Below are positions 28,816 through 31,053 of a DNA stretch of 44,337 nt, one piece after another. The DNA comes from Nitrospira sp. GTDB taxonomy: Bacteria; Nitrospirota; Nitrospiria; Nitrospirales; Nitrospiraceae. The stretch covers positions 1 through 44,337 of the forward strand of contig VGXC01000028.1 of NCBI GenBank assembly GCA_016873495.1, given 5' to 3'. Every line of letters begins with the position of its first letter. The stretch's first letter is position 1. The notes beneath the pieces were generated by a model that ran no database searches, was not told the origin of the DNA, and worked only from the letters and a program-made list of their open reading frames with translations. A program made the position numbers and the translations under genes.

Positions 28816-29484
28816 ATGCTCCGAATCGGACATAGAGGCGCAGCCGGCTATGCGCCGGAAAATACGCTGTCGTCCATCAAGAAGGCCGTGACGCTCAAGG
28901 TGGATTTTGTGGAGTTGGATATCCAGGCCACAAAAGACCGTCAGTTGGTGATCTTCCATGATCGCCGTGTGGACCGCCTCACGATCGGCAAGGGCGTCGT
29001 GGCGGACTTGAACCTGACCGACCTGCGACGATTGACGCTCCCCGGCGGTCACGCCATCCCGACGCTCGAGGAAGGGCTGAAAGCGGCGGAGGGCAAGGTC
29101 GGAGTGATGCTGGAGTTGAAGGTCCCCGGCCTGATGGAGCTGACCCTGGACACCCTCACGCGAAGCGGGTTTTCCAGCCCTGTGATCGTCGCGTCGTTCT
29201 TCCACGACGAGTTGCTGCACCTGCGGCGGCTACAGCCGAAGGCCCAGACGCTTGCGCTGCTTGTCGGGAACCCGATCACGCCCGCCGGGTTTGCACTCGA
29301 GGCCAAGGCCACCCACGTCGGCATCGCGTTCGACACGCTCGGCAAGGCCTACGTGGACGCCCTCCACTCAGCCGGGCTTCAGGTCTTCGCCTTTACCGTC
29401 AACGACCCAGCCGACATCCAGCGGATCGCGGCCCTCGGCGTGGACGGGATCATTTCGGATTTCCCGGATCGGATCCAGAAGTAG
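28816..29484 (+). CDS. glycerophosphodiester phosphodiesterase
   Basis: A 222-residue GDPD of the TIM-barrel family, splitting glycerophosphodiesters into glycerol-3-phosphate and an alcohol. Catalytic residues are visible: His6-Arg7 (GHRG), Glu33 and Asp35 (VELDIQATKD), and His48 (IFHD). The C-terminal VFAFTVNDPADIQRIAALGVDGIISDFPD motif is typical. No signal peptide, so cytoplasmic. Its last 35 bases overlap the end of the convergent BON lipoprotein gene. Confidence 0.92.
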   Translation: MLRIGHRGAAGYAPENTLSSIKKAVTLKVDFVELDIQATKDRQLVIFHDRRVDRLTIGKGVVADLNLTDLRRLTLPGGHAIPTLEEGLKAAEGKVGVMLELKVPGLMELTLDTLTRSGFSSPVIVASFFHDELLHLRRLQPKAQTLALLVGNPITPAGFALEAKATHVGIAFDTLGKAYVDALHSAGLQVFAFTVNDPADIQRIAALGVDGIISDFPDRIQK

Positions 29485-30181
29485 CAGGTCCTCCGTTCCT
29501 GGTCTGCGGCTGAAGCGACGAGGCGGCCGGTGTGCCCGACTTGGTGTCGTCCTTGGGCTCGTCCGGAGGAGGCGCTGGTGGCTTGATCCGGATGTGGGTG
29601 ATGAGACGCTCGACCTCGGTGATGCCGCGGACCTTGTCGTAGACCGCGTCGTATTCCTCCTCCGTCTGCGCGATGCCGAAGAGATAGACGGTCCCGTTGG
29701 TCGCCCGCCAGCGGTAGTTCGGGTACCGGAAGCCGGCGCCGGACATGACGGCGAACTTCACCTTGAGCTCGATCCCCGTATCCCGCACCGATTCGCGCAT
29801 GCCGAAATCTTCCGTGATGTGCAGCTCGTTATAGACCTGGTGGACCCCTTCGACCTTCTTCACCAGCGCTTCGGCTGTCTGATCGTCCCCCGCCGTCTTC
29901 ACCGCCCCCGTCATCAGGACGTCGCCCTGGTACACGTCCACGCTCACCGCCATGAACAGGTCTTTTCCTTCGCCGGCCAGAGTCCGCAGGATAGCGCTCT
30001 TCACCTTGAAGTCGTCGCCCATTTCCCCCAGCGTCCGTTCGTCCACGGCCATTTCTGTCGCCGTAGACGCGACCGAAAACGGTGCGGTGTAGGGGTTGGG
30101 CATGATGAAGCTGCAGCCGGCCAGGAGAGCGGCGGCCAAAAGAAGGACCGGACGAAGGGTGGAGGCCATGAAGGGAAGCAT
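29450..30181 (-). CDS. lipoprotein with two BON domains
   Basis: A protein of about 243 residues with a signal peptide and lipobox LLAGC (Cys about 23) and two BON domains (about 45-115 and 120-190), ending in a Pro/Gln/Gly-rich tail. BON lipoproteins of the OsmY/DolP type bind lipids and help envelope integrity. The start is uncertain: ATG at 30181 or 30169, neither with a ribosome binding site. An intrinsic-terminator-like hairpin with a T-rich tract lies only about 10 bases upstream of 30181, which is unusual and may mean attenuation. Confidence 0.8.
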   Translation of the reverse strand: MLPFMASTLRPVLLLAAALLAGCSFIMPNPYTAPFSVASTATEMAVDERTLGEMGDDFKVKSAILRTLAGEGKDLFMAVSVDVYQGDVLMTGAVKTAGDDQTAEALVKKVEGVHQVYNELHITEDFGMRESVRDTGIELKVKFAVMSGAGFRYPNYRWRATNGTVYLFGIAQTEEEYDAVYDKVRGITEVERLITHIRIKPPAPPPDEPKDDTKSGTPAASSLQPQTRNGGPATSGSDPGNPK

Positions 30182-30190
30182 AGGAGGAGG

Positions 30191-30232
30191 AAAGAAAAAA
30201 AGAAAGCCCCCGAGCCATTGGAAGCCGGGGGC
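30191..30232 (-). terminator. rho-independent terminator (minus strand), possible attenuator
   Basis: On the minus strand GCCCCCG and CGGGGGC (7-bp arms, 30232-30226 and 30212-30206) enclose 13 bases and are followed by TTTCTTTTTTTCTTT (30205-30191). It would end transcripts arriving from ssrA, yet it sits just before the BON lipoprotein start codon. Confidence 0.75.
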
Positions 30233-30247
30233 CTGGAGGGGTCTCTC

Positions 30248-30285
30248 CGGCGCCTCAGACTCGATCAACCGATAAAGAGGCGCCG
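30248..30285 (-). promoter_or_regulatory. leader stem-loop upstream of the terminator
   Basis: CGGCGCCTC (30248-30256) and GAGGCGCCG (30277-30285) form a perfect 9-bp stem with a 20-base loop. It lies 16 bases before the terminator hairpin on the minus strand, as in two-hairpin leaders. Confidence 0.45.
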
Positions 30286-30346
30286 ATTCAATAGAAGGTT
30301 GATAGGTACGTCGCGCCGTGTGACCCCTTATTCATGGGCCAGGAGT

Positions 30347-30684
30347 GAAGCCGAACACTGGTGGGGAAAAACCTCCCCGGTCGCATTTGATCGAAGCGAC
30401 CGGCTCAAACGAAGTTTGGTATGTAAGGCTGGCGCGTCATTGCCCGGCGGCACACAAACCGGGCATGTTCTCTCGCGCCAAGGAAAGGTGAAGCACGTCG
30501 CGTTAGCGACACCTTTTCATGGGCCGGGCAAATCATGGCCCATTGGTAGGGTTAGCGCGCCACTGCCCGCTGGCCAAGCGACCGGGTATCTTCGGTCGCG
30601 CTAAGACCCGAAGCGAGGCGGAATAGAGTCCAAAAACACTGGTGGGTTTTATCCGGCCGCCAGGAACAATAGATGGGCGGCCGG
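30347..30684. repeat. hairpin-dense non-coding array next to ssrA
   Basis: Six inverted repeats in 340 bases with no gene. Stem 1: CCGGTCGC 30377 / GCGACCGG 30396. Stem 2: TGGCGCG 30430 / CGCGCCA 30474 with inner GCCCGG / CCGGGC. Stem 3: AAAGGT 30484 / ACCTTT 30511 with inner GTCGC-GTTA-GCGAC. Stem 4: ATGGGCC 30519 / GGCCCAT 30537. Stem 5: TTAGCGCG 30552 / CGCGCTAA 30597 with inner GCCCG / CGGGT. Stem 6: CCGGCCGCC 30653 / GGCGGCCGG 30676. Stems 2 and 5 align as repeats with covarying arms; stems 1 and 6 each follow an identical AACACTGGTGGG (30354, 30635). It could be structured RNA processed from the ssrA transcript, or a repeat array at an integration site. Confidence 0.7.
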
Positions 30685-30702
30685 CACACGCCAAGCGAGG
30701 GA

Positions 30703-31053
30703 TGGTGGAGGTGGCGGGAATTGAACCCGCGTCCGAAGACCGTCAGCACAACGGATCTACGTGTGTAGCCGATCGTTTTGGTTTCGCAACCGCCCACGCC
30801 CACCGGCAGGCTTAGAACGGCCGCTAGCCCAGTATTGTCTCGTCCTCAGCCGCTGAGCACCAGCTTTGGACCAGCCCGCTGCATCGCGCCCCTTCCACCC
30901 CCGCGGGCCTCAGGCGGAGGGACGTCGCGGTCAGTTAAGCCGCGAGTGCCAGTTCTTGGTTGGCAGTTGCTAGTTTCCCGGAGGTTTAACGAGACCCCGA
31001 GAGCTCGACACGCACCGCTGGCCTCTGAATCCCCGTCGAAGCCAATCACCCCC
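30703..31053 (-). ncRNA. ssrA: transfer-messenger RNA
   Basis: On the minus strand the RNA begins GGGGGTGATTGGCTTCGACG and ends with the T-arm GGGTTCAATTCCCGCC, acceptor strand CACCTCC and an encoded ACCA. The 7-bp acceptor stem GGGGGTG / CACCTCC closes with one G-U pair. Length is about 351 bases, normal for tmRNA. The tag reading frame ends with codons for AACCAAGAACTGGCACTC followed by GCGGCTTAA, giving ...NQELALAA; the resume codon is either GCC (tag ANQELALAA) or GCA two codons earlier (ATANQELALAA). Together with SmpB, encoded 1.4 kb away on the same strand, it rescues stalled ribosomes and tags the nascent protein for proteolysis. Confidence 0.95.

Follow-up and report, generated by a model that had tools for sequence, protein, structure and literature searches.

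The hairpin array that follows the tmRNA gene (ssrA) of a Nitrospira sp. genome is likely a stack of short non-autonomous repeats, probably mobile and REP- or IS200/IS605-like, that insert 3' of the motif CCWCCA. The array lies in the window, which is the whole 44,337-nucleotide stretch of DNA that was analysed (contig VGXC01000028.1 of assembly GCA_016873495.1), and it is a pile of at least six units from two dispersed hairpin-repeat families. The repeats form a dispersed family with a precise left junction and orientation, a site preference, complementary variation of the stems, differences between species, and nesting; from these comparisons, we infer that the units are actively mobile. The locus is an example of a new family-restricted REP-like element, and the precision of its targeting is of more interest than its presence at ssrA. 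We know of no small bacterial repeat that addresses tRNA CCA ends and Shine-Dalgarno complements with single-base precision, and a literature search (tRNA-end repeats, Nitrospira repeats, rtT, and PATE) returned no precedent, which is weak evidence given that subscription papers were thinly covered.

Nitrospira is an important nitrifier group, and the element would account for the odd trailers of many of its tRNA and tmRNA genes. With its target and left end defined and natural insertions in the hundreds, the family lends itself to clean tests of how REP-like elements pick their targets and what moves them. It is also a caution for annotators, in that such hairpins should not be labelled regulatory RNAs.

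Anatomy of the array downstream of ssrA

A reading of this DNA made from its letters alone (the sequence-only reading) had placed a hairpin array at positions 30300–30702, directly downstream of ssrA. The hairpins it described were all present, on the same (minus) strand as ssrA, and on each strand the flank folded better than all but 1 of 100 dinucleotide shuffles (z −2.25 and −2.34). The array is real, but it reaches further than proposed, spanning 30230–30702, with one unit (30230–30304) that had been overlooked. Two types of repeat make up the array. Superfamily I units are ~75 bp long and consist of WACC, a small hairpin (4–5 bp stem, TTCG or TTGC loop), a GC-rich 8–10 bp hairpin, and then AKAAACACCTCMAGTG (the CCTCCAGTG box); the C type has the loop TTCGATCANAT in a 27-nt hairpin, and the I-b type has a loop of ~25 nt. 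Superfamily II units are ~112 bp long and carry three hairpins.

All of the following features are on the minus strand. The array is bounded on its left by the 3' CCA of ssrA (30703–31053), and directly after that CCA comes a superfamily I unit (30636–30702; stem CCGGCCGCC/GGCGGCCGG, 3' box CCCACCAGTGTT) that matches R2, our model of the I-b type. Next is a superfamily II unit of ~112 bp with its three hairpins (30493–30605; outer stem TTAGCGCG/CGCGCTAA), copies of which were found by BLAST elsewhere in the genome. A second superfamily II unit is represented by its first hairpin (30430–30482; outer stem TTGGCGCG), its right half being cut off by a C-type superfamily I unit nested in it (30352–30426; loop TTCGATCAAAT, stem CCGGTCGC/GCGACCGG), which matches R1, our model of the C type, and is among the sequences used to build that model. 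Comparison with L033/L052 and A4 suggests that positions 30310–30345 (GGCCCATGAATAAGGGGTC..GCGCGAC) are the right remnant of the interrupted unit, which is uninterrupted in a sister species (L033). The previously overlooked unit (30230–30304; stem TCGGCGCC/GGCGCCGG) is of the I-b type and matches R2, to which it likewise contributed as a building sequence. An intrinsic terminator, probably that of ssrA, follows at 30195–30226 (stem 30226–30205 plus a T tail) and is conserved in same-genus genomes. Adjoining the array, and outside the element, is what the sequence-only reading named a BON-domain lipoprotein gene (29450–30171, with a predicted start).

Two repeats within this layout had already been noticed. 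The identical 12 bases said to precede two of the hairpins (AACACTGGTGGG) do occur in two exact copies, at 30354–30365 and 30635–30646, and are the complement of the superfamily I 3' box CCCACCAGTGTT. The two nested hairpins taken for repeats of each other (30430–30482 and 30553–30605) are indeed homologous, each being the first hairpin of superfamily II.

Since the array sits between ssrA and its likely terminator, it is probably transcribed within the trailer. The units at this flank would then probably be a transcribed 3' trailer that is removed by normal tmRNA maturation, and it is possible that an ssrA-derived RNA arises from it. The earlier suggestion of an RNA processed from the ssrA transcript gained no direct support: units are also found reversed, upstream of protein genes, the units turn over within the genus, and an Rfam search of the array region gave no match at E up to 5. 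The units themselves were rejected as intrinsic terminators, as most of them have no T run directly after the stem and a canonical terminator lies downstream.

Distribution of the repeats and pairing of their stems

A search of the own genome (G000; 3.19 Mb, 89 contigs) with the array matched ~40 places, the stronger matches being 40–110 bp long and 76–88% identical, and the genomes of relatives contained the repeats too. What follows ssrA is thus a pile of dispersed repeats. Genome searches with models R1 and R2, together with individually examined stretches, gave 63 superfamily I units in 44 clusters, mainly intergenic, in the own genome. A model search of relatives, a check proposed with the sequence-only reading, found R2 units in 112 sampled genomes of family f1, to which the own genome belongs; the stems vary between copies and remain complementary. 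Two f2 genomes had one weak R2 match each, and the rest of the class sample had none. R1 was similarly distributed over the phylum, with one match in an incomplete genome of another family. In a pattern scan of 84,980 genomes, the named matches listed were all Nitrospira, Nitrospiraceae, or Nitrospirota. A pattern search of 2.9 million viral contigs gave no match, and carriage by phage was rejected on this ground. Superfamily I is a family-restricted repeat, previously unnamed, the family being Nitrospiraceae as judged from the names of the matches.

The C-type unit is also carried by a larger element of ~215 bp with inverted ends CAGGATGTTGAAAAAGGCC..GGCCTTTTTGAACATCCTG, seen at L061–L065, L069, L070, and L073 (about position 1400–1620). 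Several copies in the own genome lie in it, and it is the commonest carrier of this unit among the pattern-found Nitrospira copies listed, ~77 of 106 as judged by a shared stem and left flank.

Strong covariation was a property of superfamily I, the family of the two CCGG hairpins. In an alignment of 107 distinct C-type copies, which was fitted to the model structure, 98.4% of the helix 2 cells were paired, and both-side changes numbered 47, compared to 6.9 in shuffles and 1–5 in slid controls; in A2, they numbered 66 versus 25.8. The 8-bp stem of the C type occurs in several sequences with its complementarity kept, among copies found by BLAST and by pattern alike. All eight pairs form in 95 of the 106 pattern-found copies, seven in 10, and six in 1, with CCG/CGG preset and the two innermost positions restricted by the search pattern itself. 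Among 31 I-b units, helix 2 had four pairs with 7–16 both-side changes each, and helix 1 covaried too; these units were picked for having the stem, so their percentage of paired positions is biased. Across 14 copies of superfamily II, the outer stem had a single pair change, G-C to A-T (A-U), and the helices otherwise showed no covariation clearly above chance. It is to this superfamily that the outer arms quoted as covarying in the sequence-only reading belong, and they differ at just that one base pair. Taken together, the alignments support selection on structure, which would act across the dispersed superfamily I copies, but not for the pair of hairpins originally cited for it.

As a separate observation on superfamily II, repeats of this type flank an SRP RNA gene (L291:2195–2294) on either side.

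Insertion sites and turnover between genomes

In the own genome, 16 of the 44 clusters closely follow the 3' end of a same-strand tRNA or tmRNA gene: 15 start −1 to +4 nt from that end and one at +79; the chance expectation, by our estimate, is ~0.003. One cluster abuts a tRNA 5' end (divergent), and none of the 44 is convergent. Counting units of either superfamily, ~20 of the 44 tRNA genes carry a unit in the 3' flank, often in tandem.

We then examined 40 top-scoring R2 matches from more than 20 other genomes; R2 includes no base 5' of the junction. Thirty-five of these copies begin exactly after CCA (background 1.7%, P ~8e-57) and none at an offset of 1 or 2. The junction logo is CC[A/T]CCA|[T/A]ACC, which gives CCWCCA as the target, and the right end of the unit reads CCTCCA|GTG. 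Intact tRNA or tmRNA genes are abutted by 20 of the 40 copies, displaced tRNA 3' fragments precede 4, and the complement of a Shine-Dalgarno sequence precedes 8, a distribution in which the tRNA share may be inflated because these are top-scoring matches to R2, whose building sequences are mainly units next to tRNAs. Several of the non-tRNA copies in the own genome likewise start at a Shine-Dalgarno complement, 3–12 nt away from where a divergent gene begins (start codons as placed by a simple codon-usage caller), and many copies are in antisense orientation ahead of protein genes. An Rfam gathering scan beside the non-tRNA copies found SRP RNA and tRNA as the only stable RNA genes. The idea that an element integrating at ssrA had left the array came close, in that the hairpins themselves are the elements; what they favour is tRNA and tmRNA 3' ends in general. 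An element left by one integrase at ssrA was rejected, since ~20 tRNA genes and other places carry the same units.

At L451, L455, L474, and L480, units stand behind a displaced 3' fragment of a tRNA whose remainder is missing. Integration of an island at the tRNA, moving its old 3' end away together with the trailer, would give this arrangement. A further unit variant, CCCCGAGCTTGCTTGGCGGGAGCG..CGATCCGC, follows tRNA CCA ends at L144, L148, and L150 in G003 and at L116 in the own genome.

The units differ between relatives of one genus. Comparison of the ssrA 3' flank among same-genus genomes, suggested with the sequence-only reading, revealed units that differ in presence, type, and number. 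Orthologous tRNAs may have a unit in one species and none in the other (Pro-tgg and Glu-ctc), a unit of another type (Lys, Val-cac, and Ser-gct), or a different number of units (Ala-ggc and Leu-tag), and tandem unit number varies at Ala-ggc, Leu-tag, and Pro-cgg. At one Shine-Dalgarno site (L087, L425, L426, and L430), the stem is CCGACCCC in two species and CCGCCGCG in two others; the loops there are nearly identical and the complementary stems wholly different between sister species, and other Shine-Dalgarno sites are empty in sister species. Units at tRNAs are fewer in more distant genera, and one genome of another family has none.

Proposed mechanism, rival readings, and known systems

We propose that insertion takes place immediately 3' of CCWCCA and always in one orientation. 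This motif occurs at tRNA and tmRNA CCA ends and, as the Shine-Dalgarno complement, just upstream of protein genes; insertion at either kind of site would leave the gene intact. Once lodged, units could multiply or vanish in tandem and stack on one another, and tandem recombination accounts for part of the within-array variation. Under a single-strand (IS200/IS605 or REP-like) mechanism, CCWCCA would serve as the left cleavage site and the terminal CCTCCA as the right one. The right box is CCTCMA (CCTCCA or CCTCAA) whatever the left target and hence appears to belong to the unit itself and not to be a duplicated target. Mapping of the right end via empty sites yielded no clean empty site that defines it to the base, as the flanks were too diverged, and we therefore infer the absence of a target duplication rather than observe it. 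A left target motif, its echo at the right, and hairpins between them are the anatomy of IS200/IS605-type single-strand transposition. No PF01797 (Y1_Tnp) gene was found in the own genome or in G003, G007, G026, and G262, each of which has ~20 or more units, and no units were found near 20 Y1_Tnp loci in relatives; a Y1 transposase as the local mobiliser was rejected on these grounds. We tentatively raise the possibility that the units are a distinct class of hairpin mobile element, in which non-Y1 machinery would read CCWCCA, tRNA/tmRNA ends and Shine-Dalgarno complements would act as safe harbours, and the stem would vary with its pairing kept.

Alternatively, the hairpins could be functional RNA, conserved in the 3' trailers of tRNA and tmRNA precursors and selected for a part in termination, processing, or the release of small regulatory RNAs, as rtT/3'ETS-like sequences. 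This would fit the units at RNA 3' ends, which are always on the strand of the upstream RNA gene, as well as the complementary stem changes, the position of the array before the terminator, and the 3' box CCTCCA, which appears to resemble an anti-Shine-Dalgarno sequence. However, a trailer function sits poorly with a unit at fewer than half of the tRNA genes, with orthologous tRNAs of sister species that have no unit or one of another type, with the many antisense copies upstream of protein genes, and with the lack of any Rfam match, and we regard it as unlikely.

A classical MITE, in which a DDE transposase moves a terminal-inverted-repeat element and the hairpins are merely interior, would be in keeping with the copies inside the ~215-bp element, whereas units standing free at tRNA and Shine-Dalgarno sites have no such inverted ends, and their left junction is constant, with no apparent target duplication to match it. 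Such a reading fits the larger inverted-repeat element and is unlikely for the free units; as an account of the array, it is very improbable. We find it scarcely credible that no mobility is involved and that ancient trailers spread solely via tRNA gene duplication, tandem recombination, and gene conversion: the variable tandem number at Ala-ggc, Leu-tag, and Pro-cgg would follow from these processes, but copies also lie upstream of unrelated protein genes, at sites that are empty or differently filled in sister species, and units are nested within other repeats.

Read as probably mobile single-strand repeats, the units resemble several known systems in part. REPs are palindromes of 20–40 bp with a GTAG or CGTC tag, of which the CGTC class likewise has no dedicated transposase; Nitrospira goes unmentioned in the paper on these repeats (PMC3733652). 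Like REPs and REPINs (PMC3733652, PMC8266576), the units are short extragenic palindromes in high copy, with mosaic clusters, variable stems, and presumed single-strand movement. Unlike them, a superfamily I unit is ~75 bp long with two hairpins and the fixed left target CCWCCA, the own genome is without a Y1 transposase (RAYT), and a GTAG/CGTC tag is absent beside helix 2, where the bases are TGAG/GTG/GAA and AGAA/ATAA. In IS200/IS605-type transposition, a guide located beside the hairpin selects the cleavage sites through complementarity with them (PMC8266576). As in these elements and their non-autonomous derivatives (PATEs), hairpins lie just inside the ends of the units, and insertion is 3' of a short fixed motif that is echoed at the right end; in contrast to IS200/IS605, neither an accompanying transposase nor a related autonomous Y1 copy was found. 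To our knowledge, CCWCCA is not a motif of the IS200/IS605 family. The units share with MITEs their small size, non-autonomy, and intergenic location, but free units lack terminal inverted repeats and show no apparent target duplication, their right box not copying the left target.

The tyrT/rtT repeats of E. coli lie directly downstream of a tRNA gene and inside its transcript, each contains a copy of the tRNA 3' end, and they are known from one locus only. Superfamily I units also lie directly downstream of tRNA genes, but they are genome-wide, contain no tRNA sequence, and have no Rfam match. The yeast mitochondrial GC clusters, which are small GC-rich mobile palindromes with a preferred target, offer an analogy and differ in genome, size, and target.

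A different insertion of ~170 bp was observed after tRNA-Asp gtc in the own genome (L102, compared with L145). It carries the hairpins CGAAGGGG..CCCCTTCG and GAGGGGGCTGGCCCCCTC and terminates in another copy of the 3' end of the tRNA; several relatives have sequences resembling it behind their tRNAs.
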